Positions 2,960-61,395 of a stretch of 64,000 bases of DNA are shown piece after piece. The notes under the pieces are model-generated. The model ran no database searches, was not told where the DNA came from, and saw only the letters and a program-made list of their open reading frames with translations. This DNA comes from Helianthus annuus. Lineage: Eukaryota; Streptophyta; Magnoliopsida; Asterales; Asteraceae. The translations under genes were made by a program, and so were the position numbers. Within the stretch, counting starts at the first letter, position 1, and every line of letters begins with the position of its first letter. The stretch covers positions 150,060,703-150,124,702 of the forward strand of contig NC_035443.2 in the NCBI RefSeq assembly GCF_002127325.2, read 5' to 3'.

Positions 2960-3178
2960 ATTTCGTGTCCACAGGTAACTAACTAACTCACAGGTCGCCT
3001 TTTGTTTAGACTCGAAGGTATTTTGAGGGTCGTAACGGATCGCCACTGGTTATATAACGGTCTTTTATGAGATTAAAAGTGGTTGCGTACCATGCGGAAA
3101 AGGCTTGGTAACGGACCATTACCGAAGTCGTAATGATCCGTTATGTAGTGGCTAAGGGTGTGGCCAAAAGGTGACAAT
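2960..3178. other. Spacer between two tandem LTR copies
   Basis: 219 bp. The first 62 bases recur after copy 2 at 4508-4569. The rest contains several related stretches such as AACGGATCGCCAC, AACGGACCATTACC and ATGATCCGTTA. It has no coding potential and no recognisable tRNA primer site, and may be the minimal internal region of a TRIM-like element. Confidence 0.4.
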
Positions 3179-9269: not shown

Positions 9270-12200
9270 TCAGGCTTTCTTCTTTCCCCTACCCTGCTTC
9301 TTTTGGACATTTTTACCCTCACAACCTTTTTTCATTGTCTTTGTCTTCACACCCTTGTTTTGCTGATCTGGCGGCACACCTGTACAGGTCCTGCTGTTGT
9401 GGCCTTTACCTTTACACTTACCACATGATCCTTGAAGGTTTTTCTTCGATAACTTGCATGCCTTCTGCACATCCTCTTTCTCAACCAGAGATCTTTTTCT
9501 TTTCTTTTTTGGTCTACCAACTGGCTTGTGATATTTCGGTTCTATGATTGTAGTGGGAACCCTTGATTTGTTCCAAAGAGAAATGCCATTTATGGGAAAC
9601 ACCTTGAAGTTGTAAACTTGTTTCCATGTGTCTAGATGGTATATTGGATGCACCCAGGACTCAGGAATCCCAACCTTCTGACCATAACTTTGCATATTCC
9701 ATATGGTAGCAACAACATGTGAACATGGAATTCCAGTGATCTCCCATGTCCTGCATGTGCAGGTTTTCTGTCCCATGTCTACCACACATTTCCACTTACC
9801 TGGTCCTGCAACACCATACTGATCCCCTCCATTCCAGCTAACCCTGCATCCTGAAGCACTTTTCTTGATCTCTTCAAACAGCTCTGTAGCAAATGGTGTG
9901 AGGGGCCTATCAGTTTTGTCAATTACTTGAAGCACATTAACTATTCTCCTCATGCAATATTCTCTGATGTATTCTAAGATGGTGATGATTGGTTTATCTC
10001 TACCATCTAGAATCTTAGAGTTAAACACCTCACACATGTTATTTAATAATACGTCTGATTTTCCCCTTCCTACAAATATAACACAAGGATTAAAAAAACA
10101 TATAAGCACACATATACTAAAAAAATAGGAAATAACCTGTGAAATGTGATCTGGACCAGTGTTTAGGGTCTATCTTAGACAACCACAGATGTGCCTTTGT
10201 GTTTATTCTTTTGAGTTCTTCCATTGTCTTCTCAAAGTAGACAACTGTTGTGCTTCTTGCTAGTTTCCATAAGATATCTTTATAAGCTCTCCCTTTGAAT
10301 GTAAGTTGCATGTTTTCATGGATGTGTCTAACACAGAATCTGTGTTCAGCACATGGAAATAACCTAGACACAGCTTCAAGTATTCCCTATGTCAACCAAA
10401 CAACATTCATTAACATGTATTAACATTAATTATTAACAACATAATACATTAACAAAAAAAACTAACCTTTTGTCTGTCACTCATGAACACAAAATTGGAC
10501 ATTGGTCCAATGTCCAAATCTTGTCCCAACAATTGCAGGAACCATAACCAGGAGTTGTTATTTTCTGCCTCTACAATGGCATATGCAACAGGGTATATGC
10601 CATTGTTATTGTCAACACCCACTGTTGTTAGAACTTGACCAGGAAATGGCCCTTTCATAAAGGCACCATCAACCCCCAAAAGATCTCTACCAATTGCCTT
10701 AAACCCTGCTTTTAAACTGCCCAAGCAAACATAAATTCTCTTAAATTGTCTTGTAGTTCAATCTGGATCTGATGTAGGCTCAACTTCCAATCTAATTGTT
10801 GAATCTGGGTTAGTTCTATGCAGTTCTTCAATATAATCTCTAAGATGAGCATACTGGGCAGTGAAGTCTCCATGTAACACATTTTGTGCTTTAGATCTGG
10901 CCCTATAAGCTTGCATTTTAGAAATCTCAAGCTGATATTTTCTTTGGAACTGTTCTTGGACTGCTTTGACAGGTATGTTTGGATTTTGTTCAATCTGCTC
11001 TACAAGCTCCTCAGCAAGATAGGTGGAAGTACAAGCCTTAATCACTCGGCTTTGAAGACATTTATGATGGTGGTTGAAGGTTTTGACCAACCATGTTTTA
11101 GTCTCTTTGTCAAGAGATATCAACGCAACCCAAGGGCATGTGTTTTGACTAGGGTTTTTCTTATGCCCCCTGCCCCCTTTATGTTTTTGTTCAATAGTCC
11201 TCTCCACTTTACTATTTTCAAATTCTGGCCCCTTGCTTTTTTTCCCTGGACTTTTATCATTTTTCAGTTGTGGCCCCTTGCTTTTTTTCTTCTCACCAGC
11301 CAATTTTTTCTCAGCAGCCAATTTCTTCTCACCAGCCACTGTCTTTGCACCTTCTTTTACACCATGTTTCACCTCCTCAGTCCCTAAACCACCTAAACAT
11401 GCTACCCTGACCCTATCAGCCTCATCCTTAACTATTCTGAATTGTCGTCTGCTTTCGACTGTGTACTTCCTTATGAATTTCTTAACCTCCTCCTTTGTAC
11501 TAAACATTTGTCCAACATAGAAATCATTTTCTAGCATGCTTCAAACTTTTCTTTCTTATGTTTGCAAGATTCTCATTAGAATCACTGCAACTATCAAAGT
11601 CATCATTGTCTAAAACATCCACATCAGATTCAAGGTCTGTTTTGTATCATCTACTACTTCATCAACCATGAACCTAAAATCTCTCATATCTACCTCCTCA
11701 TCCATATCATTCATTTCATCTTCAAAATAATCACTATCCTCATCACTGTTATCCTCATCCTCTGTTGTATCATCCCTAACTTCTTCTTCCTCATAGTCCT
11801 TATCTGAATTATCACTAAGTTCATGATCACTAACTTGTTTAGCCTCATTAGCACTAAGTTCATGATCACTAACTTGTTTAGCCTCATTAGCACTAACCTT
11901 CACATCGTTAACATCTAAAGAAGTATTGCTTTGGGTTTGACTAAATCGTTGAACATTAGACATCCCATTTTCCAAATAAACATTAATGTACCTGTGACCA
12001 TCCCTAACAAAAGCAACCAACTTCTTAATATCTTCATCATTACTTAATAATGTAAGTCCATTATCAAGGTCATTCATTGATGGATCAGAAAAGTGAAAGT
12101 AATGAGGCACATCATCGTTATAACCTAGCTTATCCCTAATCGACTCTAATTGTGCAAACCCAAACCTATCACTGTCAAGAAAATCAAAGAAATCTTGGTC

Positions 12201-12436
12201 ATCATTCTTATAGATTCGTCCTGGAGGATCAGTGAAATACCCTACATGATACAAGTGTATAGAGAACAACGTTGGATAATCACCTACAATGCAAGTTACA
12301 GAACATGATCAGTGACCAAAAACTCAACTTAATTTTGACCTAATACACATATTTGGAGTGAAGAAGTATTACCGTATATAAGATCTAGTGCAAAATCATC
12401 ATCAGGACCACGAACTTGAATCGGATCAGGATCCAT
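9270..12436 (-). pseudogene. mudrA-like MULE transposase, disabled
   Basis: Multi-exon transposase gene. The probable start is ATG at 12436 (MDPDPIQVRG), with exon 1 ending at 12374 and exon 2 from 12283. Order: acidic N-terminal region (12283-11610), Mutator DNA-binding domain (about 11537-11400, NDFYVGQMF...), Lys-rich linker, MULE catalytic domain with VDGAFMKGPFPG near 10660 and FMSDRQK near 10470, then after two introns a SWIM zinc finger CTCRTWEITGIPCSHV near 9750, an AT-hook GRPKKKRKR near 9510 and a CCHC knuckle CGKCKGKGHNSRTC near 9420. Damage: frameshifts near 11640 and 11540 and an in-frame TGA at about 10758. Functional homologues cut and integrate the element in the nucleus; this copy should not encode a full enzyme. 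Confidence 0.9.
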
Positions 12437-16876: not shown

Positions 16877-18073
16877 TGTTGGAAATTTGTGAAAATAGCA
16901 TTTTTCACAAATATATGATTTTTTCTTATTTTGGACTAGAAATAAATATAAGAAAATGAGCGAGTTTTATATATTTATTTATGGGTTTGTATTCTGTGCT
17001 GGAAGAGCTTCACAACGAACTAAACCACGTCCAAAACGGAGCTAAGATGAATGAGATATTGATGCTCAAACTTTGGTGTTTCAAGCATAGAATGCTGAAA
17101 AAGTGGGAAAGTAGAATCTTGTCCCACATGGGATGAGAGATGAAACTTAAAGGGGTATTTAAGTGGGAACTCTCCATCATTATTGTTTCATGGAAGCACA
17201 CACTAAGTGTACTCGCGAAGGGTGTTCCGTACCCTAACTTGCACACGCGCGCGCGCGTGGAATTGGCGATGAGGCGCAATGTGGCGCTTTGATGGCGCGT
17301 GCGCGTGGTAGAGCACAAGGGCTGCTAGGACCTGGTGGTTGGTGACGTGGCAAGTAGGCGCGCGGTTGCGCACATGGAGCATGGGCACTGATGTGACGTG
17401 CGCGGCGCACCAAAGTGAGCCAATACGGCGCGCTGTGTGGCGTGCTCGTATAGGCTCACAGGTGACGTGGCGCACGCGCGCATGAGCATGCAGACCTGCG
17501 TGCGCACCAATGTGTCTTGCGCGCACAGAAGCTTCCAGCAGTTAATGTCAGTGCAGTTACATTTCAGCATTTGAAACTGACGAGTCAATGCTTTTGACTG
17601 AGAATTAAATGACGAGTTAAAGTGCATTGAAGAAGTTTAATGCAGTTTAATTCACCCATTTAACTCATTTTTTTCAGTTTCTTCCAAAGATCTGCAGTAT
17701 AAATAGGTGGTCACCCCTACTGTAAGAATACACCGAAATTCACCAGCTAATACAATCTTCTTCACTGAATTCTTCTTCATCTTCAAGCAGCAGGGTATAC
17801 ATTCGGGTTGGAGTCAAGACCGGCAGTGCAACTGCTTCGAGCTGTTGTATCCTGGAAACAGACGTGTTCTCCTGGGAGACACGAAATTTGTTTTAAGAGA
17901 ACGGTGTCTAACACGATCCTCAGCCAAGAACATTTTTATTTTTTCTTGTAATTCTGTCTTGTTTTTATGTTTATTTCACTTGTAACCAGTTCTGTTATCT
18001 TTATGCTTTCCTAATTTCTGTTGTAATTCAAGTTAATAAATTTTTATTTATTTTTCATGAACAGATTCCTACA
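16877..18073 (+). mobile_element. Solo LTR of the GC-rich LTR family
   Basis: 1197 bp, starting TGTTGGAAATTTG and ending GATTCCTACA, flanked by a perfect 5-bp duplication TAACA (16872-16876 and 18074-18078). It is the inverted-orientation relative of the LTRs at 2029-4507, with the GC-rich GCGCGC core at 17240-17530. TATAAATAGG at 17699-17708 is a good TATA box. A solo LTR with intact duplication indicates LTR-LTR recombination after insertion. Confidence 0.92.
17699..17708 (+). promoter_or_regulatory. TATA box in solo LTR
   Basis: TATAAATAGG about 365 bases before the LTR end, followed by a C-rich start region. Expected promoter position of the parent element. Confidence 0.55.
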
Positions 18074-18173
18074 TAACATATACTTGGAGAAGATTCATCA
18101 TGACAATCAAAAGGGTTAATATGACTTACACTTTGAGAAGCTCGAGCTCATCGAATGTAACAAACATAGAAAC

Positions 18174-18702
18174 TTAGAAAATATAAACATAATTTCTTTA
18201 TATTTCGGATATTATGTATGTATGTTAACTTAGGTTATGTGACTTATAATTATATGTAATTATGAACCGGTATATTAGAGTGGTTATGTTGGTTAGGAGA
18301 CACCGATTCAAAGGGTAGTTTCCCTCCATCTTTAACCGCTCATAACTGCCATTTATATGTTATATTTATATGTCTCACTACTAGAAAATGCACCTATCTT
18401 GACACGCGAACAATGACACACACTCATTTTATAACATTCAAAAGCGTGTGTCAAGAAAAAAATGTCATGGTTTACAAAATTCAATAAATTTATGACACTC
18501 TTTTTTCTGTGTCATCTTTTTAGCGTCATAAAGAAAAAACAAGACCATTTTATGACATTTGAAAGTGTGTGTCAAGAAAAAAATTTTAACCGCCAAAATT
18601 GTCCCTCAATTCAATCACTGCAAACATAGAACAAATCAAGTTTATTGTCATGAATCCAATCTATCATAATGCTTCCGCTGATTATCAATCCGATGGCCAA
18701 CA
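18174..18702 (+). repeat. Array LTR 1 (outer left, with CACTA-end insertion)
   Basis: Homology to the other LTRs starts at TTAGAAAATATAAAC (18174), without the terminal TG. Bases 18376-18585 replace about 27 bp of the LTR (GCCGGGAACTATTCTTGG region). Ends CCAACA at 18702. Confidence 0.85.
18376..18585 (+). mobile_element. CACTA-type terminus fragment inside LTR 1
   Basis: Begins CACTACTAGAAAATGCACC, a CACTA-like end, followed by subterminal repeats (two copies of GTGTGTCAAGAAAAAAAT, plus ATGACA motifs). The right join lies in CAAGAAAA, which is also present at the matching place in the intact LTRs (CACCAAGAAAATTTTAACC), so it looks like a microhomology junction with loss of LTR sequence. No right terminus is present. 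Confidence 0.65.
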
Positions 18703-20158
18703 AAGTGGTATCAGAGCGGGTTATGTTAGCGATGATGATCTCAAGCCGTCTTCAACAATGATGCCGTGTAAACACTGCACTGAAGAGAAGCGCTAACGGA
18801 GATGGATGCAGAGGCGGTGCTACTGCTGTAATAAGCCTGGCCACAAGATTTCAACATGTGCAATGAAAGAAAATGATGAGGAAACTCAATTGCTCCGTCT
18901 GGCAGTAGACACAGGAACGCAGAAACTACATGACAAAGATCCTGAACAACAAAATGGTCAAAGGATGGAATACATAGTGGTTGGCACCGACGGAGGTCTA
19001 TGGTCGGAAATATGGTATGTTAGTAAAACTCTTAAACATCACTATTCTAGCAATATGGATATGTTCAAACGTATAAAAAACATATCAAGTGTTGAAACGA
19101 ACACCAGAGAAAATCATTTCTTCTTCATAAGGGGCATAGGGGTCACTGAAATCGTATCAGGGATGGAAAAGATCCGTATTCAGAGTATGTTTTACACTCC
19201 GGATATTGATAGAAACGTATTAAGTTTAGACCAACTGATTACACAAGTTTTCACCGTTAAGTTTATCGAAGACAAATGTAAATTGTTTCCCACATTCAGT
19301 GTTCCACTGTTTAATAAGAAGAGTGATAAAACTAGAATGACTAAAGAAGAAGAAGTTGGTATGTTAGACAAAGAATTAGTGATAAGCAGAGAAACGGAAC
19401 ATGAAAGATTCAAAACTGAATTCTTAAATGATTACTTTGAAAGTTTGAATGTATCAACGAACGAACCGGACTGGAACGTTCTGATACTTCAAGCAATGTC
19501 TTTCAAAGAATTCAATGACTGTAAGGCACTGTTAGACATGTTAGAGGATGAGGATTATGTTATAAAATACAGATATCATCTCGATATCAAGTTCAATGAA
19601 ATGATAGATTGGTTTCTGAAAGTTAAGTTAGAAATATTCACAAGACCCTTGCCGGCATATGCTTCGGAAAACAGGAAGGTGTGTTTATTAGATTTATACA
19701 TGAGTGTCAAACGAGAAAGGGGACACCGGATGGTTACTGAAAACAATCTATGGGCAAAGATTGCCAAAGAGATTGGTTTTGACTATAGTGAAGGTGAATA
19801 CATGAGGTTCCTACATGCCATGTACTTGGATGTGATGATCTACTATTACAAGTACAAATCGATACAAGAAAAAGCACATCCGAAAGAGGAGATCAAGACA
19901 GTGACCGATCCAAGGCAAAGCAAAAGTGATGAAGTCAAAATGGAGGGGACAGAATCTGTGCAAGCAGACGGAAACTCAAGAACCAAAGAAGTTGTAGAAA
20001 ATGAAGCTGATCACTACGCATTCTTCACTGGCAACGATTGGGAAGGGATAAGGAGGATGCACACTAGAAGAAGGTTCGATTTTAAAAGGCCAAAAGCTGT
20101 TGTGGATGATGCCAATATCAGCGTTTTAACACACTCTCGCAAACGTTATTATGTTTAG
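18650..20158 (+). pseudogene. Unit 1 CCHC-ARID ORF, nonsense at codon 49
   Basis: Same 502-codon frame as units 2 and 3 but with TAA at 18794-18796 (codon 49), where the other units have an AAA or GAA codon. The nearest downstream in-frame ATG (18806) keeps the CCHC knuckle, the dead-protease segment and the ARID domain, so a shorter 450-residue product is conceivable. The rest of the frame is undamaged, so the stop is probably recent. Confidence 0.85.
18706..18717 (+). other. Primer binding site, array unit 1
   Basis: TGGTATCAGAGC, three bases after LTR 1; complementary to the 3' end of plant initiator tRNA-Met. The copia element at 61333 uses the same sequence. Confidence 0.85.
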
Positions 20159-20164
20159 GGGGTG

Positions 20165-20517
20165 TGTTATAAAATATAAACATAATTTCTTTATATTTCG
20201 GATATTATGTATGTATGTTAACTTAGGTTATGTGACTTATAATTATATGTAATTATGAACCGGTATATTAGAGTGGTTATGTTGGTTAGGAGACACCGAT
20301 TCAAAGGGTAGTTTCCCTCCATCTTTAACCGCTCATAACTGCCATTTATATGTTATATTTATATGTCTTGCCGGGAACTATTCTTGGCACCAAGAAAATT
20401 TTAACCGCCAAAATTGTGCCTCAATTCAATCACTGCAAACATAGAACAAATCAAGTTTATTGTCATGAATCCAATCTATCATAATGCTTCCGCTGATTAT
20501 CAATCCGATGGCCAACA
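20165..20517 (+). repeat. Array LTR 2
   Basis: 353 bp, TGTTATAAAAT (one substitution from the TGTTAG of other copies) to CCAACA, preceded by the purine tract AGGGGG. Shared as 3' LTR of unit 1 and 5' LTR of unit 2. Confidence 0.9.
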
Positions 20518-21973
20518 AAGTGGTATCAGAGCGGGTTATGTTAGCGATGATGATCTCAAGCCGTCTTCAACAATGATGCCGTGTAAACACTGCACTGAAG
20601 AGAAGCGCAAACGGAGATGGATGCAGAGGCGGTGCTACTGCTGTAATAAGCCTAGCCACAAGATTTCATCATGTGCAATGAAAGAAAATGATGAGGAAAC
20701 TCAATTGCTCCGTCTGGCAGTAAACACAGGAACGCAGAAACTACATGACAAAGATCCTGAACAACAAAATGGTCAAAGGATGGAATACATAGTGGTTGGC
20801 ACCAACGGAGGTCTCTGGTCGGAAATATGGTATGTTAGTAAAACTCTTAAACATCACTATTCTAGCAATATGGATATGTTCAAACGTATAAAAAACATAT
20901 CAAGTGTTGAAACGAACACCAGAGAAAATCATTTCTTCTTCATAAGGGGCATAGGGGTCACTGAAATCGTATCAGGGATGGAAAAGATCCGTATTCAGAG
21001 TATGTTTTACACTCCGGATATTGATAGAAACGTATTAAGTTTAGACCAATTGATTACACAAGTTTTCACCGTTAAGTTTATCGAAGACAAATGTAAATTG
21101 TTTCCCACATTCAGTGTTCCACTGTTTAATAAGAAGAGTGATAAAACTGGAATGACTAAAGAAGAAGAAGTTGGTATGTTAGACAAAGAATTAGTGATAA
21201 GCAGAGAAACGGAACATGAAAGATTCAAAACTGAATTCTTAAATGATTACTTTGAAAGTTTGAATGTATCAACGAACGAACCGGACTGGAACGTTCTGAT
21301 ACTTCAAGCAATGTCTTTCAAAGAATTCAATGACTGTAAGGCACTGTTAGACATGTTAGAGGATGAGGATTATGTTATAAAATACAGATATCATCTCGAT
21401 ATCAAGTTCAATGAAATGATAGATTGGTTTCTGAAAGTTAAGTTAGAAATATTCACAAGACCCTTGCCGGCATATGCTTCGGAAAACAGGAAGGTGTGTT
21501 TATTAGATTTATACATGAGTGTCAAACGAGAAAGGGGACACCGGATGGTTACTGAAAACAATCTATGGGCAAAGATTGCCAAAGAGATTGGTTTTGACTA
21601 TAGTGAAGGTGAATACATGAGGTTCCTACATGCCATGTACTTGGATGTGATGATCTACTATTACAAGTACAAATCGATACAAGAAAAAGCACATCCGAAA
21701 GAGGAGATCAAGACAGTGACCGATCCAAGGCAAAGCAAAAGTGATGAAGTCAAAATGGAGGGGACAGAATCTGTGCAAGCAGACGGAAACTCAAGAACCA
21801 AAGAAGTTGTAGAAAATGAAGCTGATCACTACGCATTCTTCACTGGCAACGATTTGGAAGGGATAAGGAGGATGCACACCAGAAGAAGGTTCGATTTTAA
21901 AAGGCCAAAAGCTGTTGTGGATGATGCCAATATCAGCGTTTTAACACACTCTCGCAAACGTTATTATGTTTAG
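20465..21973 (+). CDS. Unit 2 CCHC/dead-retropepsin/ARID protein, intact
   Basis: 502 codons. Residues 40-43 form a CKHC pair; 57-70 a CCHC knuckle (CYCCNKPSHKISSC, with Ser for the usual Gly). Residues about 122-225 align with the copia protease/GAG-pre-integrase region: WYVSKTLKHH matches the copia WYCDSGSSKHM layout, but the catalytic D-S-G is S-K-T, and FYTPDIDRNVLSLDQLITQ matches YVESLKYNLLS further on. Residues about 320-405 are an ARID domain (LYMSVKRERGHRMVTENNLW...LDVMIYYYKYK). The C-terminus is basic (THTRRRFDFKRP-like). The ATG used lies in the 5' LTR and the frame reads through the primer site; an ATG at residue 37 or 38, inside the internal region, is an alternative start. Predicted nuclear DNA- or nucleic-acid-binding protein, not an active protease. 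No intron needed. Confidence 0.8.
   Translation: MNPIYHNASADYQSDGQQSGIRAGYVSDDDLKPSSTMMPCKHCTEEKRKRRWMQRRCYCCNKPSHKISSCAMKENDEETQLLRLAVNTGTQKLHDKDPEQQNGQRMEYIVVGTNGGLWSEIWYVSKTLKHHYSSNMDMFKRIKNISSVETNTRENHFFFIRGIGVTEIVSGMEKIRIQSMFYTPDIDRNVLSLDQLITQVFTVKFIEDKCKLFPTFSVPLFNKKSDKTGMTKEEEVGMLDKELVISRETEHERFKTEFLNDYFESLNVSTNEPDWNVLILQAMSFKEFNDCKALLDMLEDEDYVIKYRYHLDIKFNEMIDWFLKVKLEIFTRPLPAYASENRKVCLLDLYMSVKRERGHRMVTENNLWAKIAKEIGFDYSEGEYMRFLHAMYLDVMIYYYKYKSIQEKAHPKEEIKTVTDPRQSKSDEVKMEGTESVQADGNSRTKEVVENEADHYAFFTGNDLEGIRRMHTRRRFDFKRPKAVVDDANISVLTHSRKRYYV
20521..20532 (+). other. Primer binding site, array unit 2
   Basis: TGGTATCAGAGC after LTR 2, identical to unit 1. Confidence 0.85.
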
Positions 21974-21979
21974 GGGGTG

Positions 21980-22332
21980 TGTTAGAAAATATAAACATAA
22001 TTTCTTTATATTTCGGATATTATGTATGTATGTTAACTTAGGTTATGTGACTTATAATTATATGTAATTATGAACCGGTATATTAGAGTGGTTATGTTGG
22101 TTAGGAGACACCGATTCAAAGGGTAGTTTCCCTCCATCTTTAACCGCTCATAACTGCCATTTATATGTTATATTTATATGTCTTGCCGGGAACTATTCTT
22201 GGCACCAAGAAAATTTTAACCGCCAAAATTGTCCCTCAATTCAATCACTGCAAACATAGAACAAATCAAGTTTATTGTCATGAATCCAATCTATCATAAT
22301 GCTTTCGCTGATTATCAATCCGATGGCCAACA
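21980..22332 (+). repeat. Array LTR 3
   Basis: 353 bp, TGTTAG to CCAACA, directly after the purine tract that includes the stop codon of unit 2 (TTTAGGGGGTG). Confidence 0.92.
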
Positions 22333-23788
22333 AAGTGGTATCAGAGCGGGTTATGTTAGCGATGATGATCTCAAGCCGTCTTCAACAATGATGCCGTGTA
22401 AACACTGCACTGAAGAGAAGCGCAAACGGAGATGGATGCAGAGGCGGTGCTACTGCTGTAATAAGCCTGGCCACAAGATTTCATCATGTGCAATGAAAGA
22501 AAATGATGAGGAAACTCAATTGCTCCGTCTGGCAGTAAACACAGGAACGCAGAAACTACATGACAAAGATCCTGAACAACAAAATGGTCAAAGGATGGAA
22601 TACATAGTGGTTGGCACCAACGGAGGTCTCTGGTCGGAAATATGGTATGTTAGTAAAACTCTTAAACATCACTATTCTAGCAATATGGATATGTTCAAAC
22701 GTATAAAAAACATATCAAGTGTTGAAACGAACACCAGAGAAAATCATTTCTTCTTCATAAGGGGCATAGGGGTCACTGAAATCGTATCAGGGATGGAAAA
22801 GATCCGTATTCAGAGTATGTTTTACACTCCGGATATTGATAGAAACGTATTAAGTTTAGACCAATTGATTACACAAGTTTTCACCGTTAAGTTTATCGAA
22901 GACAAATGTAAATTGTTTCCCACATTCAGTGTTCCACTGTATAATAAGAAGAGTGATAAAACTGGAATGACTAAAGAAGAAGAAGTTGGTATGTTAGACA
23001 AAGACTTAGTGATAAGCAGAGAAACGGAACATGAAAGATTCAAAACTGAATTCTTAAATGATTACTTTGAAAGTTTGAATGTATCAACGAACGAACCGGA
23101 CTGGAACGTTCTGATACTTCAAGCAATGTCTTTCAAAGAATTCAATGACTGTAAGGCACTGTTAGACATGTTAGAGGATGAGGATTATGTTATAAAATAC
23201 AGATATCATCTCGATATCAAGTTCAATGAAATGATAGATTGGTTTCTGAAAGTTAAGTTAGAAATATTCACAAGACCCTTGCCGGCATATGCTTCGGAAA
23301 ACAGGAAGGTGTGTTTATTAGATTTATACATGAGTGTCAAACGAGAAGGGGGACACCGGATGGTTACTGAAAACAATCTATGGGCAAAGATTGCCAAAGA
23401 GATTGGTTTTGACTATAGTGAAGGTGAATACATGAGGTTCCTACATGCCATGTACTTGGATGTGATGATCTACTATTACAAGTACAAATCGATACAAGAA
23501 AAAGCACATCGGAAAGAGGAGATCAAGACAGTGACCGATCCAAGGCAAAGCAAAAGTGATGAAGTCAAAATGGAGGGGACAGAATCTGTGCAAGCAGACG
23601 GAAACTCAAGAACCAAAGAAGTTGTAGAAAATGAAGCTGATAACTACGCATTCTTCACTGGCAACGATTTGGAAGGGATAAGGAGGATGCACACTAGAAG
23701 AAGGTTCGATTTTAAAAGGCCAAAAGCTGTTGTGGATGATGCCAATATCAGCGTTTTAACACACTCTCGCAAACGTTATTATGTTTAG
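22280..23788 (+). CDS. Unit 3 CCHC/dead-retropepsin/ARID protein, intact
   Basis: 502 codons, fully open, differing from unit 2 at only a few positions. Its knuckle keeps the consensus Gly (CYCCNKPGHKISSC), residue 9 is Phe instead of Ser, and the ARID domain has the consensus GG (KREGGHRMVTENNLW). The protease-like segment again lacks the catalytic Asp (SKT for DSG). Neighbours are LTR 3 (containing the upstream ATG) and LTR 4 immediately after the stop. Of the five units this one best keeps both consensus domains, so it is the best candidate for a functional copy. Expression is unknown. Confidence 0.8.
   Translation: MNPIYHNAFADYQSDGQQSGIRAGYVSDDDLKPSSTMMPCKHCTEEKRKRRWMQRRCYCCNKPGHKISSCAMKENDEETQLLRLAVNTGTQKLHDKDPEQQNGQRMEYIVVGTNGGLWSEIWYVSKTLKHHYSSNMDMFKRIKNISSVETNTRENHFFFIRGIGVTEIVSGMEKIRIQSMFYTPDIDRNVLSLDQLITQVFTVKFIEDKCKLFPTFSVPLYNKKSDKTGMTKEEEVGMLDKDLVISRETEHERFKTEFLNDYFESLNVSTNEPDWNVLILQAMSFKEFNDCKALLDMLEDEDYVIKYRYHLDIKFNEMIDWFLKVKLEIFTRPLPAYASENRKVCLLDLYMSVKREGGHRMVTENNLWAKIAKEIGFDYSEGEYMRFLHAMYLDVMIYYYKYKSIQEKAHRKEEIKTVTDPRQSKSDEVKMEGTESVQADGNSRTKEVVENEADNYAFFTGNDLEGIRRMHTRRRFDFKRPKAVVDDANISVLTHSRKRYYV
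22336..22347 (+). other. Primer binding site, array unit 3
   Basis: TGGTATCAGAGC after LTR 3. Confidence 0.85.
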
Positions 23789-23794
23789 GGGGTG

Positions 23795-24147
23795 TGTTAG
23801 AAAATATAAACATAATTTCTTTATATTTCGGATATTATGTATGTATGTTAACTTAGGTTATGTGACTTATAATTATATGTAATTATGAACCGGTATATTA
23901 GAGTGGTTATGTTGGTTAGGAGACACCGATTCAAAGGGTAGTTTCCCTCCATCTTTAACCGCTCATAACTGCCATTTATATGTTATATTTATATGTCTTG
24001 CCGGGAACTATTCTTGGCACCAAGAAAATTTTAACCGCCAAAATTGTCCCTCAATTCAATCACTGCAAACATAGAACAAATCAAGTTTATTGTCATGAAT
24101 CCAATCTATCATAATGCTTCCGCTGATTATCAATCCGATGGCCAACA
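23795..24147 (+). repeat. Array LTR 4
   Basis: 353 bp, TGTTAG to CCAACA. Confidence 0.92.
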
Positions 24148-25603
24148 AAGTGGTATCAGAGCGGGTTATGTTAGCGATGATGATCTCAAGCCGTCTTCAA
24201 CAATGATGCCGTGTAAACACTGCACTGAAGAGAAGCGCAAACGGAGATGGATGCAGAGGCGGTGCTACTGCTGTAATAAGCCTAGCCACAAGATTTCATC
24301 ATGTGCAATGAAAGAAAATGATGAGGAAACTCAATTGCTCCGTCTGGCAGTAAACACAGGAACGCAGAAACTACATGACAAAGATCCTGAACAACAAAAT
24401 GGTCAAAGGATGGAATACATAGTGGTTGGCACCAACGGAGGTCTCTGGTCGGAAATATGGTATGTTAGTAAAACTCTTAAACATCACTATTCTAGCAATA
24501 TGGATATGTTTAAACGTATAAAAAACATATCAAGTGTTGAAACGAACACCAGAGAAAATCATTTCTTCTTCATAAGGGGCATAGGGGTCACTGAAATCAT
24601 ATCAGGGATGGAAAAGATCTGTATTCAGAGTATGTTTTACACTCCGGATATTGATAGAAACGTATTAAGTTTAGACCAACTGATTACACAAGTTTTCACC
24701 GTTAAGTTTATCGAAGACAAATGTAAATTGTTTCCCACATTCAGTGTTCCACTGTATAATAAGAAGAGTGATAAAACTTGAATGACTAAAGAAGAAGAAG
24801 TTGGTATGTTAGACAAAGACTTAGTGATAAGCAGAGAAACGGAACATGAAAGATTCAAAACTGAATTCTTAAATGATTACTTTGAAAGTTTGAATGTATC
24901 AACGAACGAACCGGACTGGAACGTTCTGATACTTCAAGCAATGTCTTTCAAAGAATTCAATGACTGTAAGGCACTGTTAGACATGTTAGAGGATGAGGAT
25001 TATGTTATAAAATACAGATATCATCTCGATATCAAGTTCAATGAAATGATAGATTGGTTTCTGAAAGTTAAGTTAGAAATCTTCACAAGACCCTTGCCGG
25101 CATATGCTTTTGAAAACAGGAAGGTGTGTTTATTAGATTTATACATGAGTGTCAAACGAGAAGGGGGACACCGGATGGTTACTGAAAACAATCTATGGGC
25201 AAAGATTGCCAAAGAGATTGGTTTTGACTATAGTGAAGGTGAATACATGAGGTTCCTACATGCCATGTACTTGGATGTGATGATCTACTATTACAAGTAC
25301 AAATCGATACAAGAAAAAGCACATCCGAAAGAGGAGATCAAGGCAGTGACCGATCCAAGGCAAAGCAAAAGTGATGAAGTCAAAATGGAGGGGACAGAAT
25401 CTGTGCAAGCAGACGGAAACTCAAGAACCAAAGAAGTTGTAGAAAATGAAGCTGATCACTACGCATTCTTCACTGGCAACGATTGGGAAGGGATAAGGAG
25501 GCTGCACACTAGAAGAACGTTCGACTTCAAAAGGCCAAAAGCTGTTGTGGATGATGCCAATATCAGCGTTTTAACACACTCTCGCAAACGTTATTATGTT
25601 TAG
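24095..25603 (+). pseudogene. Unit 4 CCHC-ARID ORF, nonsense at codon 229
   Basis: The frame matches units 2 and 3 but GGA is TGA at 24779-24781. This separates a CCHC plus protease-like product (228 residues) from an ARID-containing part that restarts at the very next codon, ATG 24782 (273 codons). Either half could be made, but the joined protein cannot. The knuckle has Ser for Gly as in unit 2. Confidence 0.85.
24151..24162 (+). other. Primer binding site, array unit 4
   Basis: TGGTATCAGAGC after LTR 4. Confidence 0.85.
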
Positions 25604-25609
25604 GGGGTG

Positions 25610-25962
25610 TGTTAGAAAATATAAACCTAATTTCTTTATATTTCGGATATTATGTATCTATGTTAACTTAGGTTATGTGACTTATAGTTATATGTAATTA
25701 TGAACCGGTATATTAGAGTGGTTATGTTGGTTAGGAGACACCGATTCAAAGGGTAGTTTCCCTCCATATTTAGCCGCTCATAACTGCCATTTATATGTTA
25801 TATTTATATGTCTTGCCGGGAACTATTCTTGGCACCAAGAAAATTTTAACCGCCAAAATTGTCCCTCAATTCAATCACTGCAAACATAGAACAAATCAAG
25901 TTTATTGTCATGAATCCAATCTATCATAATGCTTCCGCTGATTATCAATCCGATGGCCAACA
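25610..25962 (+). repeat. Array LTR 5
   Basis: 353 bp, TGTTAG to CCAACA, with a few private substitutions (e.g. ATAAACCTAATT, CCATATTTAGCC). Confidence 0.92.
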
Positions 25963-27414
25963 AAGTGGTATCAGAGCGGGTTATGTTAGCGATGATGATC
26001 TCAAGCCGTCTTCAACAATGATGCCGTGTAAACACTGCACTGAAGAGAAGCGCGAACGGAGATGGATGCAGAGGCGGTGCTACTGCTGTAATAAGCCTGG
26101 CCACAAGATTTCATCATGTGCAATGAAAGAAAATGATGAGGAAACTCAATTGCTCCGTCTGGCAGTAAACACAGGAACGCAGAAACTACATGACAAAGAT
26201 CCTGAACAACAAAATGATCAAAGGATGGAATACATAGTGGTTGGCACCGACGGAGGTCTCTGGTCGGAAATATGGTATGTTAGTAAAACTCTTAAACATC
26301 ACTATTCTAGCAATATGGATATGTTCAAACGTATAAAAAACATATCAAGTGTTGAAACGAACACCTCTTCATAGGGGGCATAGGGGTCACTGAAATCGTA
26401 TCAGGGATGGAAAAGATCCGTATTCAGAGTATGTTTTACACTCCGTATATTGATAGAAACATATTAAGTTTAGACCAACTGATTACACAAGGTTTCACCG
26501 TTAAGTTTATCGAAGACAAATGTAAATTGTTTCCCACATTCAGTGTTCCACTGTTTAATAAGAAGAGTGATAAAACTGGAATGACTAAAGAAGAAGAAGT
26601 TGGTATGTTAGACAAAAATTAGTGATAAGCAGAGAAACGGAACATGAAAGATTCAAAAACTGAATTCTTAAATGATTACTTTGAAAGTTTGAATGTATCA
26701 ACGAATGAACCGGACTGGAACGTTCTGATACTTCAAGCAATGTCTTTCAAAGAATTCAATGACTGTAAGGCACTGTTAGACATGTTAGAGGATGAGGATT
26801 ATGTTATAAAATACAGATATCATCTCGATATCAAGTTCAATGAAATGATAGATTGGTTTCTGAAAGTTAAGTTAGAAATCTTCACAAGACCCTTGCCGGC
26901 ATATGCTTCGGAAAACAGGAAGGTGTGTTTATTAGATTTATACATGAGTGTCAAACGAGAAGGGGGACACCGGATGGTTACTGAAAACAATCTATGGGCA
27001 AAGATTGCCAAAGAGATTGGTTTTGACTATAGTGAAGGTGAATACAAGAGGTTCCTACATGCCATGTACTTGGATGTGATGATCTACTATTACAAGTACA
27101 AATCGATACAAGAAAAAGCACATCCGAAAGAGGAGATCAAGGCAGTGACCGATCCAAGGCAAAGCAAAAGTGATGAAGTCAAAATGGAGGGGACAGAATC
27201 TGTGCAAGCAGACGGAAACTCAAGAACCAAAGAAGTTGCAGAAAATGAAGCTGATCACTACGCATTCTTCACTGGCAACGATTGGGAAGGGATAAGGAGG
27301 TTGCACACTAGAAGAAGGTTCGACTTCAAAAGGCCAAAAGCTGTTGTGGATGATGCCAATATCAGCATTTTAACACACTCTCGCAAACGTTATTATGTTT
27401 TGGGGGTGTGTTAG
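25910..27414 (+). pseudogene. Unit 5 CCHC-ARID ORF, frameshifted and stop lost
   Basis: Relative to units 2 and 3 there is a 16-bp deletion after AACACC at about 26366, a 1-bp deletion near 26617 (GACAAAAATTAG) and a 1-bp insertion near 26657 that restores frame. The normal stop TAG is TTG, so the frame runs four codons into LTR 6 and ends at 27414. CCHC and ARID segments are both present but separated by frame breaks. This is the most damaged unit and lies at the right edge of the array. Confidence 0.88.
25966..25977 (+). other. Primer binding site, array unit 5
   Basis: TGGTATCAGAGC after LTR 5. Confidence 0.85.
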
Positions 27415-27762
27415 AAAATATAAACATAATTTCTTTATATTTCGGATATTATGTATGTATGTTAACTTAGGTTATGTGACTTATAATTATATGTAATTAT
27501 GAACCGGTATATTAGAGTGGTTATGTTGGTTAGGAGACACCGATTCAAAGGGTAGTTTCCCTCCATCTTTAACCGCTCATAATTGCCATTTATATGTTGA
27601 TATTTATATGTCTTGCCGGGAACTATTCTTGGCACCAAGACAATTTTAACCGCCAAAATTGTCCCTCAATTCAATCACTGCAAACATAGAACAAATCAAG
27701 TTTATTGTCATTAATCCAATCTATCATAATGCTTCCGCTGAATATCAATCTGATGGCCAACA
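27409..27762 (+). repeat. Array LTR 6 (outer right)
   Basis: 354 bp, TGTTAG to CCAACA. After it the primer site is absent and unrelated DNA (ACAAACACATAAATG) begins, so this is the true right end of the array. The upstream ATG of other units is ATT here. Confidence 0.9.
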
Positions 27763-28151
27763 ACAAACACATAAATGATATTTTGCTGACCCTTAGGCCA
27801 GTGCGACTTACACTAAGAAATATTCTTGATCACTTGTGGTTAATTAGTGTTAATGTTCCAAATTTTTTCTTAGTGAAAGCTACCTATTTGACGAACATAG
27901 GATCAACTATTACAGTTTTCATTATTAAATAGTTAAGACACATCTTTTGATTTTCTCAAAGGACTTCTAATAACTTGTGGTGCTAGAATGAGAAATTAAT
28001 CATAGAGTTTGTAAAAACTCATCCCTGTTAAAAAGTTAATGACAAGTTTCGATATCACATATCTATTAGGAAATATATACAATACAATCAAGAGTTTTAT
28101 TTCTTAATTTATTCAATCATTAATGAAGGCAAAAGGTTGCAAATTTTATTA
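27763..28151. other. Intergenic, nothing recognised
   Basis: AT-rich flank between the array and the GH17 pseudogene; no coding or repeat feature seen. Confidence 0.4.
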
Positions 28152-31652: not shown

Positions 31653-34600
31653 TGTCACACCCCTAATTTACACGTGTCACCGGTGGGCCCGGTGGGGGAT
31701 TACGTGACGTAGTTGATATCATCATATGTCAAACAACACAAATTATAATGCACAGCGGAAGCAAATGAAAATAGATTTATTTCAACTATTAATTGTAATA
31801 TCAAGTATCACAACCAGTCAAAATAGATCCACAGGCGGATCGAAGAAAAAGAAAGAAATTGTTCAACAGATATATGCATCCCAAAAGCTTGCTAGACTCT
31901 ACGATGCTAAGGAGAAACCAGCCTATTGCGTATAGCACCTGCACTTAATCTTTTTGGGGAAAATACGTCAGTTTGCACTGGTAAATACAATTTAACTGAC
32001 TCATTTTGAAAATATTTAAAAATTGGTTTTAAATGCACAAGGCACAAAACATTTTATAACTTGGGAATATTTAATCAGAGTTAAACTTGTAAAAGATTTA
32101 CATGTTTGTTAACCGCTCATTCGCCCGAGTCGTATCGGGTTTAAGGTTAAATGACACACCACATGGTATAAGTCCGCGGCGGGAAGCCAACGTTAATAAC
32201 TTAAAAATAATGGACATAATACCGGGTGTACGCCTACACCCGGGTGTCAAGGTCGTGGCCAAAAAATGATGCCAAGGATATCCGGGACATGGTCATTAAG
32301 CTCCCAAAGGCATAAAAACAAACAACACCAAGTTTTTAAACGGGTCCCATTGATAATACCCAACTACTAATGAGATGGGGTCAATCGCCCGACCAAGCGG
32401 TATTTTATATACCGTACCCCCAAGCCCGTATAAGGGAAAATAAGTTAAAAGTATTTACCTGAGCAAGTATAACCACAATTTCAAAAATGCACGTGTCTTT
32501 TACTAGGCTCCTATTCTGGAACGAAGGTTATAATAACCTATTAGAATCCTAACGGGTCTTTTAACATAGCCTAAGCTTAGACCGGTTAGTTTCGAAGAAT
32601 AAATATGGTTTAATCGCGAGGAATGCGAAAACCGGAAAGGAATGTGATTTAGACCCTACAAGCTTGGATACTTGTATTAAACTAAACACATTCTGTATTT
32701 TGAGACTTAGATGATATGGTTTGACCCGTTTCGGCTAATATGCGTGAACTAGTCACATAAACCGATCCGAACGCGAAAGTGCGTAACGAGTAATCTCACA
32801 AGTCATATGCAAGTTTTCCTGAGATTATATGCACCAAATATATTGTAATATCAGTAAGGTATGTCCAAATATGCCCCAAATGTTTTTATACGCCAATTAC
32901 GCCTCATAAGGGCATTTTGGTAATTTTACATAGGCTAAAAAGGGTAAAAACGGAAAGTCTGAGTTTCCAACTTTATCTACTGTTATAGTATATATTTTTA
33001 TAAAATATATCAGTAGGTATTAGACCTTTTATATAAAAACTCGTTCTGACATATACTATGTCGTAAAAATGCCTAAAAAGGCGATTTGGAGCCATTTCCG
33101 GGTTTTAAAAGGAAAGCTGATATTTTTATATTTCCAGAAAGTTCAAAATATCATATTTAATATAACAAATCAGTAGGAAAAGGTTTGGGGTCAAAAGGTT
33201 ATGTAAAACTCATTTTAGGACCAAAAAGGGTAAAACCGGCATAAGCCGAAATAAGCTTAGACCCTATAGTTATGCTCAGCCTAAAAATGAATAAAAATCT
33301 TTAAAATTCCCAAAATATTATTATATAACAGTGGGTATAAAGTTTTGGTATAGAATTCGGGTTTAGATAGGTTCTGCGTTAATTACGCTAATTGTTTATT
33401 AAGAAAGCTTCTAATTACGCTAACGAGCATAACTCTTAATCTAGACCTCAAACTGATGTCAAATTTTGGGGACAACTTTATATTTCAGTAACTAAGGTGT
33501 CTACCCTTTTACATTTTCAAAAATTATAATTTTTGGACATTCGGGCATAATGGTCAACATATGGGCATTTAACGGAAACATGCATATGAACAAGATATCT
33601 AATGAACCACATTGTATAATCACAGGAGGATATACTAACATGTTAATAGGTTCAAAAGAAGCTCTAAGGTATTTTTAATCTTAACTAAAACGGGTCAGAA
33701 CTGAAAGTCAAAGCGAAAGTCAAACTATGCGACTTTCGGTTCCGAACCGGGTCTAAACAGAAAATTGTCGAGTTGAACATGTTGGAACATGTTCTTATAC
33801 TTATTACCAAGTTATATTAATGTTCAAACAGGTTACATACAACCTACATTGCTTATTATGCGTTAATCCGAAATTAAGCATTCTGTTGACTTTTTATAAT
33901 TAGCTTTGACTCGACAATTATCATGCTTAGAGTGGGAATCTGGAAACACCCTTTTAAGGGTTTGTTACCCACTTAATTACCTTCCTAAAGGTATCTTTAA
34001 TTCGTGATTAGACAAAGCACATTATGCTTAATCACGAAGTCAAACCTTAACTACGACGGTTTGACTTTTACTTAATTAACTAAGCTAGAAAGGATTAAAG
34101 ATGGTTAAGGACACTTACAAGAGTCCTAAGATGGATTAGAGAGCCTAAGAAAATGTGTTGGTGACCAGAGGAGTTCCAGAGAGCTTTTAGCCAAAGTTCC
34201 AAATGAGCAAGTTCATATGGTCACACTTCAAGCTCTTTATATAGTGAACTAGAAGCTCCAAGATCTTGACAAGCAAGTCTAGGGTAGTTACAAGATCAAC
34301 CCAAATATCCCTAAGGGTCTATATACTGCCTAGGAAGCCCATAGAATCAGAATTTTACGTTTTAAGTCGGTTAAAGGGCTGGACAGGCAGCTGTCCAAAA
34401 CATACTGCCAGCGACGGTCTTACGGACTGTAAGCTTGAGGCCTTACGGTCCGTAAGGACCTCTTGCGGACCGTATGCTACATGATTTGCGGTCCGTAACA
34501 GACTTTACTGAAACATGGTTCAGGTGCCCACCTTACGGACCGTAAGCCTAGGGCTTTGCGGTCCGTAACCGATCCATGCGGAACATTCCCAGGTACCCTG

Positions 34601-35215
34601 CTTACGGACCGTAAGCCAAGGGCCTTGCGGTCCGTAAGCGATGGCCAGAAGACAAAAGTTTGCAAACTTTTAAGTCTTGACCATGCAACCACAATACCCG
34701 AAACATGCTATCTCTTTTCAGATGTGGGGCCTTCAAGACCAGCCATTGCATGCCTTACTTCTTCTTACATGTTCCCCATTCATATCAACCTATTAAGGGA
34801 CTTGTAGTTTGACGGAGATTCAAAGAAGTGAGTCTTGGACTTTCATAGGAGTTGGCCAAGCTTATAACAATTCTTATTCATAAGAATTTTATTTAATTTA
34901 TGAGTAGTAACAACCTATAATTCCATAGCCCTTAATAAAGATGGAACTTTATTTATTTGAGGGCAACCGGTTATCGAATGAGATGATCATCAATTGATTT
35001 AAGGATCTTGGGATTTATGAAAATTTCGGGTCGCTCAGAGGTGATTTAATAACGTGTCGCCCTTGGGTCGTTCAGAGGTATTTTAAATAACATGACGCCC
35101 CTTTTTATTAGAAATCCTACCACATATCTCTTTATTAAATCCGGTTTTTCTGACACGTCTGTCACACATGACACGTGCCTTTATTCTAATGGACAGGAAT
35201 TTTCGAGGTGTTACA
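31653..35215 (-). repeat. Chromovirus 3' LTR (3.56 kb)
   Basis: On the minus strand starts TGTAACACCTCG at 35215 and ends GGGGTGTGACA at 31653. Bases 31653-32661 match 42185-43193. The small ORF at 31726-31935, repeated at 42258-42467, is only LTR sequence. Confidence 0.92.
34419..34641. repeat. Palindrome cluster CTTACGGACCGTAAG in LTR
   Basis: About eight occurrences of TTACGGACCGTAA, TTGCGGTCCGTAA or close variants, alternating in arrangement, each able to form a small hairpin. GC- and CpG-rich against AT-rich LTR flanks. Confidence 0.8.
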
Positions 35216-35235
35216 TCCTCACCCCCTTAAAAGAA
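35216..35235 (-). other. Polypurine tract of chromovirus
   Basis: On the minus strand TTCTTTTAAGGGGGTGAGGA immediately precedes the 3' LTR; the expected plus-strand priming site. Confidence 0.8.
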
Positions 35236-35251
35236 ATCTCGACCTCGAGAT

Positions 35252-38200
35252 TTACTGAAACAATTGAGGGTATTTCTCCTTCATCGTGGATTCTAATTCC
35301 CACGTATAATCAGGACCTCTGCGGCCCTCCCATTTGACCTTGACAATGGGTACATGCTTCCTCCGAAGCTCCTTTACCTGTCGGTCCTCAATCGATACAG
35401 GTTTTTCTATAAACTTCAAGCTTTCATCAATATGCACATCTGTATGCGGTATGACTAGCGATTCATCAGCCATACATTTCTTCAAATGGCAGATGTGGAA
35501 CACATTGTGAATACCACTAAGCTCTTCTGGTAAGTTCAACTTATAAGCCACTGATCCTACACATTCGATGATCTCGAATGGTCCAATGTATCTTGGGCTT
35601 AACTTACCTTTCTTGCCAAATCTCATTACCCCTTTCCAAGGTGATACCTTGAGCAAAACCTTATCGCCAACCTCAAACTTGAGGGACTTTCGCTTACCAT
35701 CGGCATAGCTTCTTTGCCTATCACGGGCAGCTTTTAGGTGCTCAGTGATTTGGGTAACTTTGTCAGTCGTCTCCAGGACTAATTCGGGTCCTGATACTTG
35801 AACGTCTCCTACCTCTACCCAACAAATGGGTGTTCTGCACTTCCTACCGTATAGTGCCTCAAAAGGCGCAGCCTTAAGGCTGGTGTGGTAGCTATTATTG
35901 TATGAGAACTCGATCAGAGGCAGGTGTCTATCCCAACTTCCTCCTAAGTCTATCACACATGCACGAAGCATGTCCTCCAGGGTTTGAATAGTACGCTCGC
36001 TTTGTCCATCCGTCTGAGGATGATAGGCTGTACTAAAATTCAGTTGCGTACGCAGAGACCTTTGGAAACTTTTCCAGAAGTGTGATGTATATCTTGTATC
36101 CCTATCAGAGATGATGGATACTGGTATGCCATGCAGGGATACTATCTTATCCATATACAGTTGGGCTAGCATGTCAGAACTGAAAGTTTCTCTAATGGGT
36201 AGGAAATGAGCTGACTTAGTCAGTCGATCAACTATCACCCAAATAGTGTCATTTCCCTTCGGTGTTTTAGGCAACTTGGTAATGAAATCCATTGTTACCA
36301 TTTCCCATTTCCAGGTGGGAATCTCAGGCTGTTGCAGCAAACCTGACGGTTTCTGATGCTCAGCTTTAACTTGAGCGCACGTCAGACATTTAGCCACATG
36401 GGTGGCTATAGACTTTTTCAAGCCTATCCACCAGTAATTTGCCTTTACATCCTGATACATCTTGTCCGCTCCAGGATGGACAGAATATTTGGAACTGTGG
36501 GCTTCCTTTAGGATGACGTCACGAAGACCTCCAAAAATAGGAACCCATATTCTTCCATTCAACCTCAGGATTCCGTCTTTGCCATAGGATAACTGTTCTT
36601 CAGTCACTCCTAGCTTCTCATTAGGGTAGTTAGCTTCTAACACTGCTTCCTTCTGTGCAGCTAACAACCTTTCATGCAGACTATTCCTGACCTCAATGCT
36701 TTTGGCATTGATTCTGATTGGCTTTATCCTTTCCTTCCTGCTTAGGGCATCTGCGACTACATTGGCCTTGCCGGGATGGTATCTTATTTCACAATCATAG
36801 TCATTTAGAGTTTCCATCCAACGTCGCTGCCTCATGTTTAATTCTTTCTGGTTGAACAGGTGCTAAAGGCTTTTGTGATCAGAATAGATCACACATTTAG
36901 TGCCATACAAATAGTGCCTCCACAATTTTAGTGCAAATACAACGGCACCCAATTCCAAATCATGAGTGGTGTAATTCTTCTCGTGCACTTTCAATTGTCG
37001 TGAAGCGTAGGCGATGACCTTGCCTTTCTGCATTAACACACAACCCATCCCGGTGTGTGATGCATCACAATAGACTACAAATTCATCAATCCCATCAGGT
37101 AACGTCAACACGGGAGCGTTACTTAATTTCTGCTTCAACGTATCGAATGACTCTTACTGCTTAGGTCCCCAATTGAACTTGCTATTCTTGCGAGTCAGCA
37201 AAGATAGGGGTGCAGCAATTCTTGAGAAATTTTCGATGAATCTCCTGTAGTATCCAGCTAAACCTAGGAAACTGCGGATTTCCGTAGGCGTCTTTGGCTC
37301 CTGCCAATTCATGACAGCTTCAACTTTAGCGGGATCCACTTGAATACCACGCTCACTAACCACATGTCCAAGAAATTGGACTTCTCTCAACCAAAACTCA
37401 CATTTGGAAAACTTTGCATATAGCCTTTCTTGATGAAGCAGCTTCAGAATACTACGGAGGTGTTTCTCGTGATCAGCTTTACTCTTGGAATAAATGAGAA
37501 TGTCGTCAATGAAGACGATGACGAATTTATCCAAGTAAGGTTTGCAAACGCGATTCATGAGATCCATGAATGCGGCAGGTGCGTTTGTGAGCCCGAAAGG
37601 CATCACTAGGAACTCGTAGTGGCCATAACGAGTCCTAAACGCAGTCTTGTGCACGTCTTCTTCCTTAACCTTCAACTGATGATATCCCGATCTCAGGTCG
37701 ATCTTGGAGAAGTAGCTTGCCCCTTGAAGTTGATCGAATAGATCGTCGATCCTGGGTAGAGGATACCTATTCTTAATGGTAACGTTGTTGAGCTCTCGGT
37801 AATCGATACATAGACGCATCGAACCATCTTTCTTCTTGACAAATAGAATTGGTGCTCCCCAAGGAGACGAACTAGGTCTAATGAAACCTTTAGCTAGCAA
37901 ATCGTCTAGCTGCGTTCTTAATTCCTTCATCTCCGTTGGCGCTAGCCTATAAGGCGCTCGAGCAATAGGTGCAGCTCCAGGAACGATATCGATTTTGAAC
38001 TCTACTTGTCTGTCTAGCGGCAAACCAGGCAGTACTTCTGGAAAGACTTCAGGATATTCGGATATAACGGGAATATCTTCAATCTTGGGCTTTTGCTCAT
38101 CAATGGTTACTTGTGCCATATAGATGACACAACCATTCTTCAAACATTGGGATGCTTTGAGCATAGACATTTGCTTAGGCAATCCATGACGCGTATCTCC

Positions 38201-41999: not shown

Positions 42000-42169
42000 G
42001 ATGACCTGCATACGATAATCAGACAACAACAACAATATAATAAAAGACTCAAAATAAAACAAAACAGAGTTTGTCCTATGTTCGATGTCTAGACTCGGAA
42101 CTCGAAGAATGTGCAATTTGTGCACTGAGATTAAACACAAAAGGCTAGTGTTTAATTCACTCAGTGTTG

Positions 42170-42181
42170 GCTCTGATACCA
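42170..42181 (-). other. Chromovirus primer binding site
   Basis: Minus strand TGGTATCAGAGC, three bases inside the 5' LTR end; initiator tRNA-Met type. Confidence 0.85.
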
Positions 42182-42184
42182 ACC

Positions 42185-61344: not shown

Positions 61345-61395
61345 AGACTGAATAAATTATTTTCAAACGATCAATCGCTCTTCTATTTTCTAAAT

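Follow-up and report, generated by a model that had tools for sequence, protein, structure and literature searches.

How a short LTR retroelement comes to lie in several head-to-tail copies that share their LTRs is the question raised by a locus of Helianthus annuus at positions 18172-27762 of the window (the whole analysed stretch of 64,000 nucleotides). Base-by-base inspection confirmed the main observation of a preliminary description, namely that six LTRs alternate here in tandem with five internal regions. On the basis of sequence comparisons, we consider it likely that the array goes back to a single insertion of a non-autonomous, copia-derived Helianthus LTR retroelement, which grew in place by out-of-register exchange.

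All features described here lie on the plus strand. LTR1 (18172-18702, 531 bp) begins with AC instead of TG and contains an insert, LTR2 to LTR5 (20165-20517, 21980-22332, 23795-24147, and 25610-25962) measure 353 bp each, and LTR6 (27409-27762) measures 354 bp. Internal regions 1 to 4 (18703-20164, 20518-21979, 22333-23794, and 24148-25609) have 1462 bp each, and internal region 5 (25963-27408) has 1446 bp. The LTR length of 353 bp and the internal length of 1462 bp originally given for the whole array thus hold for LTR2 to LTR5 and for regions 1 to 4, but not for LTR1, LTR6, and region 5. Likewise, the proposed period of 1815 bp is exact for the starts of all five internal regions and for LTR2 to LTR5, whereas LTR1 and LTR2 are 1993 bp apart, because about 194 nt (18376-18569) replace about 16 nt of LTR1, and LTR5 and LTR6 are 1799 bp apart. 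The motifs ascribed to each junction are also less uniform than assumed: CCAACA ends all six LTRs, but TGTTAG opens only LTR3 to LTR6, while LTR1 starts with ACTTAG and LTR2 with TGTTAT. The primer-binding site TGGTATCAGAGC (18706-18717 in unit 1; others at 20521, 22336, 24151, and 25966) follows every LTR except LTR6, and a purine tract (20157-20164 in front of LTR2; further tracts ending at 21979, 23794, 25609, and 27408) precedes every LTR except LTR1, i.e. five of six in both cases. The primer for TGGTATCAGAGC would be the initiator methionine tRNA. Hence, apart from the AC at the start of LTR1, the TG...CA ends, primer site, and purine tract of LTR retrotransposons are present, and the alternation with an LTR at both array ends agrees with tandem LTR retrotransposons as delimited in PMC11899658. 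Any two internal regions are set apart by 7-23 substitutions over 1445-1462 aligned bases, and the repetition is therefore far beyond chance.

The preliminary description regarded the array as a departure from the normal forms of LTR elements. Tandem LTR arrays have, however, already been reported as common in plants: 266 were reported from a rice pangenome (PMC11899658), Cassandra arrays contain up to 12 repeats each (PMC7215508), and Wukong arrays 3-7 LTRs (PMC4528315). The sunflower array resembles the tandem structures described in rice, Arabidopsis, almond, and cotton in its alternation and its shared inner LTRs, for which a single insertion was the interpretation given there (PMC11899658). 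In contrast to the 28 closely analysed rice cases of that survey, which were mostly gypsy elements with conserved retrotransposon domain regions, no pol enzyme domain was found in the sunflower element. It is also similar to the Cassandra TRIM (PMC7215508) and to Wukong (PMC4528315), which are short elements forming arrays with several shared LTRs; TRIMs have been described as non-coding, whereas the internal region in sunflower is nearly all one open reading frame (ORF). The tandem array thus belongs to a known kind of structure; what looks unusual is the element with its gene. The term "gene-satellite" proposed for it overstates the case, since there are five units with an intact ORF in units 2 and 3 only; satellite DNA comprises long arrays of many repeats, compared to five internal regions here.

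The preliminary description had made its reading depend on dispersed single copies with target duplications, and such copies exist. Seven related elements were taken from elsewhere in the genome for comparison, of which six have the single-copy form LTR-internal-LTR and are flanked by perfect target duplications of 5 bp (TATAG, CATAC, CATAC, GTTTT, ATATC, and TGAAT). The two CATAC copies were counted as one insertion because the 15 nt on either side are identical, so the six copies represent five independent insertions. The seventh element, on C5, is a truncated and eroded second multi-LTR array. The element is about 2.2 kb long, and the array unit is 1815 bp. At the array itself, no target duplication directly abutting both ends was seen. 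The hexamer ACAAAC occurs on both flanks, where the copy at 27763-27768 abuts LTR6 and may be the 3' target duplication, and the copy at 18160-18165, displaced by about 7 nt from the start of LTR1, may be a remnant of its 5' counterpart. The lack of an abutting duplication speaks against a single insertion at the array site. At the inner junctions inspected, LTR and internal region join directly with no inner target duplication, as a single insertion would predict.

Trees built on uncut internal stretches separated units 1-5 from five other copies (L009, L011, L013, L015, and L016) with a support of 1.000 in FastTree and 100 in UFBoot. Branching within the array was weak (UFBoot 53-76) and disagreed with an earlier tree. 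At individual sites, 15 sets of derived mutations are common to several units and 14 changes are confined to single units. In the physical order of the units, 12 of the 15 shared sets are contiguous, which is the best value among the 60 possible orders (mean 5.7); the probability of this contiguity is 0.00085 for random sets treated as independent, and the order test alone corresponds to 1 in 60. The three non-contiguous sets concern columns 142, 458, and 1189. The outgroup state is retained by unit 1 at columns 157, 211, and 292 and by unit 5 at columns 552, 943, and 1303. This edge pattern is not clean, because unit 1 has a third base at column 97, and unit 5 has the outgroup state at columns 97 and 292. 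Three states are common to LTR1-5, while LTR6 differs and agrees at these sites with the outgroup LTRs. Such sharing of new mutations, mostly between neighbouring units, is better explained by one insertion that then grew stepwise through unequal exchange than by a ready-made concatemer. Out-of-register exchange is possible because each unit starts and finishes with the same LTR; pairing of sister or homologous copies would have added units up to the present five internal regions and six LTRs. The repeated unequal exchange already proposed for this locus is thereby supported by the single-copy relatives, the trees, and the ordered shared mutations, although the crossing-over would be a past event that we infer.

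The strongest competing explanation, which we nevertheless regard as unlikely, is that a concatemer was formed beforehand, by template switching or by read-through transcription of a one-LTR circle, inserted once and then diverged. Both routes have been proposed for plant tandems (PMC11899658, PMC7215508), and they would likewise yield one insertion with units of near-equal length. A concatemer of identical units that underwent no later exchange should, however, show star-like divergence. We reject this simple form of the alternative put forward in the preliminary description, because shared derived sets are as frequent as single-unit changes and mostly contiguous along the array. A concatemer of unlike RNAs, or one followed by later exchange, may still account for the data. 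Less probable still is that the array started when two independent insertions of one family, lying close to each other, recombined. Such an origin was suggested for Wukong (PMC4528315), and two copies of the sunflower family do lie about 47 kb apart on C12, although these look like one duplicated insertion; we discarded it because the trees set the five units apart from the five other copies. The inner junctions inspected also lack an inner duplication. An assembly artefact is hardly credible, as all 10 pairs of internal regions differ, so that no unit is an exact copy of another, and ordered shared mutations are not expected from an artefact.

The element has a single ORF of 502 codons, which starts inside the LTR, runs through the primer-binding site, fills the internal region, and ends within the purine tract. 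This ORF is intact in unit 2 (20465-21973, from LTR2 to the purine tract) and in unit 3 (22280-23788), where its product contains a CCHC motif, a Pol_BBD domain (PF22936), and an ARID (PF01388). Region 1 has a premature stop at 18794-18796 and reopens from 18806, region 4 has a single premature stop at 24779-24781, and in region 5 a 16-nt deletion and 1-nt indels accompany an ORF split in three. With its 1815-bp unit and 502 codons, the element is not a very short, non-coding TRIM. Only ARID and Pol_BBD exceeded the Pfam cut-offs. The ARID scored 39 bits against a curated cut-off of 24.1; comparison with ARIDs of known structure gave weak matches, the best with an E of 0.00066. The CCHC motif was recognised by sequence pattern, Pfam giving no gag or zf-CCHC match, and a Chromadorea_ALT match (18.7 bits, cut-off 25) was set aside. 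We ruled out an autonomous copia element because the Pfam search found no pol enzymes (integrase, reverse transcriptase, or RNase H); mobilisation would presumably occur in trans by an autonomous copia element, and the CCHC/Pol_BBD/ARID protein might act in the propagation of its own element. An ordinary host gene cluster was excluded on account of the LTRs, primer site, and purine tract, and of the target duplications of the dispersed copies.

The element resembles the sunflower TR-GAG and single-ORF LTR elements (PMC9784723), non-autonomous elements in which two LTRs flank one retroelement-derived ORF. Those elements are described as encoding GAG, RT, RT-RH, RH, or INT-RT, while the ORF of the array starts in the LTR and combines the CCHC motif, Pol_BBD, and ARID; the main text of that paper makes no mention of "ARID". 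Like the gene-capturing Bs1 (PMC13317346), it contains host-type sequence inside an LTR element, but Bs1 is reported to hold fragments from three genes of its host (ATPase, xylan endohydrolase, and glucanase), whereas here an ARID is fused to retroelement domains. Among open-licence papers, we found none joining ARID with retrotransposons in sunflower, ARID with retrotransposons and CCHC in Asteraceae, or ARID with CCHC in Tanacetum; among the literature matches listed for ARID domain, LTR retrotransposon, gag, and domesticated, "ARID domain" appears only in PMC8725346, once.

As to mechanism, the 2025 survey leaves the choice between concatemer and later exchange open (PMC11899658); the polarised sites of the sunflower locus speak for later exchange, and the order test on shared mutations could be extended to other arrays.

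Some annotated sunflower "ARID/CCHC transcription factors" may be copies of this element. Between diverged loci, dN/dS was 0.05-0.31 at dS 0.14-0.94, a range that excludes L009 versus the array, L011 versus L012, and L014. L009 versus the array gave 0.53-0.87 at dS 0.04-0.05; of six pairs within the array, four had a dN/dS below 0.5. More speculatively, many of the sunflower proteins annotated as "CCHC(Zn)/ARID transcription factors", a large part of them, could be not host regulators, but the sole gene product of an old LTR retroelement, itself non-autonomous, that fuses nucleic-acid-binding and protease-like retroelement domains with a captured ARID. Purifying selection might maintain this fusion since the protein, perhaps by ARID-guided targeting, aids the spread of the element, and arrays would be a local by-product. 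If this applies to the annotated proteins, the element would account for what looks like an expansion of ARID/CCHC "transcription factors" in sunflower, and it would provide a case of coding sequence, primer-binding site, and LTRs under joint constraint. Stretches similar to the insert in LTR1 occur at many other places in the genome (matches spanning query positions of about 204-354); close to the start of the insert lies CACTACTAGAAAA, presumably a CACTA-type MITE end.

At base level, positions 18172-27762 consist of six LTRs alternating head to tail with five internal regions, which bears out the tandem multi-LTR array proposed in the preliminary description. The proposed period of 1815 bp is exact for the spacing of the five internal-region starts, but LTR1 carries ~194 nt in place of ~16 nt, and the other four internal regions are each 16 bp longer than region 5. 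Stretches resembling the LTR1 insert occur at many further places according to the genome search. As a structure, the array is of an ordinary kind. Tandem LTR arrays are described as common in plants, with 266 in a rice pangenome (PMC11899658), up to 12 repeats in each Cassandra array (PMC7215508) and 3–7 LTRs in Wukong arrays (PMC4528315). Just upstream of the array, stretches of 16877-18054 are 71–86% like parts of a 999-bp direct repeat pair (96.5%) at 2025-4569.

The preliminary description had also proposed looking for single LTR-internal-LTR copies and for other arrays, and both were recovered. The genome search returned 70 matches with 40 of 399 candidates scored, so that its counts are lower bounds; outside the window, the initial portion of the LTR has at least 13 matches. 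These represent seven elements, all of which were retrieved, as eight stretches. Six are LTR-internal-LTR copies with perfect 5-bp target duplications, namely TATAG for L009 and L010 (treated as a single element in two parts, interrupted by ~13.9 kb), CATAC for both L011 and L012, GTTTT for L013, ATATC for L015, and TGAAT for L016. L011 and L012, which are located ~47 kb apart on C12, also share identical 15 nt on either side. This suggests a segmental duplication, probably of one insertion along with its surroundings, and the two were therefore counted once, giving five independent insertions. Within each single copy, the LTRs differ from one another at 5–9 of ~355 sites, corresponding to ~0.7–1.3 million years at a substitution rate of ~1e-8 per site and year, and none of the six copies has an intact ORF. 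The seventh element, L014, comprises 250 bp of 3' internal-region sequence followed by an LTR, an internal region and an LTR. Its repeat pieces are 96–99% alike, and it is an eroded second array.

Regarding the origin of the array, we found fairly good evidence for stepwise growth by repeated unequal exchange between LTRs, one of the two routes suggested in the preliminary description. Trees were built from uncut stretches (roughly the 5' 1300 bp of the internal region) of the five units, L009, L011, L013, L015, and L016. The array units split from these related elements (FastTree 1.000, UFBoot 100), while branching within the array was weak (UFBoot 53–76) and its order unlike that of an earlier tree. 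A shared-mutation test comprised 27 variable gap-free columns of the internal-region alignment, one of them ambiguous; the remaining columns held 14 single-unit changes and 15 shared derived sets. Twelve of the 15 sets are contiguous in the physical order of the units, which is the best of 60 unit orders (mean 5.7); the order test alone gives 1 in 60, and P is 0.00085 with random sets treated as independent. Contiguity fails at columns 142, 458, and 1189; at 458, the two closest outgroups conflict with the majority used, and at 1189, the deviating unit carries a third base. The outgroup state persists in unit 1 at columns 157, 211, and 292; in unit 5, it persists at columns 552, 943, and 1303. 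This two-edge pattern is not clean and only suggestive, because column 97 shows a third base in unit 1, and unit 5 has the outgroup state there and at 292 too. Three states common to LTR1–5 differ in LTR6: at two of these sites, all ten outgroup LTRs compared match LTR6; the third is a gap of 1 bp in LTR1–5, where all ten have a base, the identity of which varies. Taken together, the sharing of mutations between units, the edge pattern, and the LTR6 pattern would be expected from a single insertion followed by unequal exchange. A point against this scenario is that no target duplication directly abutting the array was found. ACAAAC directly follows LTR6 and recurs ~7 nt before the start of LTR1; this pair may be a damaged target duplication.

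The element forming the array looks like a new form of gene-carrying, non-autonomous LTR retroelement. Units 2 and 3 contain an intact 502-codon ORF. It starts 53 nt before the LTR end, includes the primer site in its reading frame and has its stop codon in the purine tract. Units 1 and 4 have one premature stop each, and the ORF of unit 5 is broken by a 16-nt deletion and 1-nt indels. Pfam assigns to the unit protein an ARID (39 bits, cut-off 24.1) and a Pol_BBD (29.4, cut-off 27), a domain of copia polyproteins; the sequence also shows a CCHC motif. The ARID matches solved structures weakly (best E 0.00066). Inspection of the unit protein by eye, against the motif typical of copia proteases, did not reveal a protease active site. 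Single-ORF LTR elements occur in sunflower (PMC9784723); ARID is absent from the main text of that report, whereas the element of the array carries it. No report of an ARID-bearing LTR element was found among the papers listed in searches of the open-licence literature.

dN/dS was calculated according to NG86 on open stretches only, leaving out unit 5. Unit 3 gave 0.26 against L011, 0.29 against L012, 0.21 against L015, 0.15 against L013, and 0.11 against L016, and L015 against L016 gave 0.06; the full between-locus range was 0.05–0.31 at dS 0.14–0.94. Set apart from this range are L009 versus the array units (0.53–0.87 at dS 0.04–0.05), L011 versus L012 (0.93), and the L014 pairs (0.08–0.12, saturated; two not computable). 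The six pairs within the array, which differ by few changes, ranged from 0.38 to 1.65, with four below 0.5. Judged from these sequence comparisons, the pattern is consistent with a protein that matters between transposition rounds and degrades once a copy has been inserted. Alternatively, it may stem from a conserved host gene repeatedly seeding copies.

A first protein search yielded 96 matches (91 Helianthus, 5 Tanacetum). A second, using an alignment of 35 first-search relatives and window proteins as query, yielded 127, with 116 from Helianthus and 4 from Tanacetum among the 120 matches listed. Such searches find only relatives with common short exact words, and the real spread may be wider. 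Read in the ORF, the primer site encodes the peptide GIRA; 51 of the 96 relatives have this peptide among their N-terminal 110 residues, and the 45 lacking it there include all five from Tanacetum as well as many with a more internal start. Of 12 copies compared (five window units, seven elsewhere), 11 carry a perfect 12-base primer site, and L009 has one mismatch. The site is intact in L014, a copy nearly saturated at synonymous sites relative to the array (dS above 2), and the ORF start lies inside the LTR there as well. L014 is 63–83% identical to the eight best-matching annotated Helianthus proteins. In the annotated sunflower proteins P0072 and P0079, part of the unit protein is joined to a protein kinase, and in P0067 to PF00854; these may be gene-model fusions.

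Further elements are present in the window. An ORF with a CCHC motif at 61333-62713, presumably a copia gag, lies behind the same primer site as the array units, TGGTATCAGAGC, and by its sequence might represent a type of helper element. On the minus strand, 31653-43193 contains long ORFs (35252-36835 and 37154-39820) between repeats of 1009 bp that are 98.9% identical (31653-32661 and 42185-43193), and we regard this element as Ty3/gypsy-like. ORFs with a SWIM-type motif at 9270-12269, also on the minus strand, presumably encode a MULE-like transposase.
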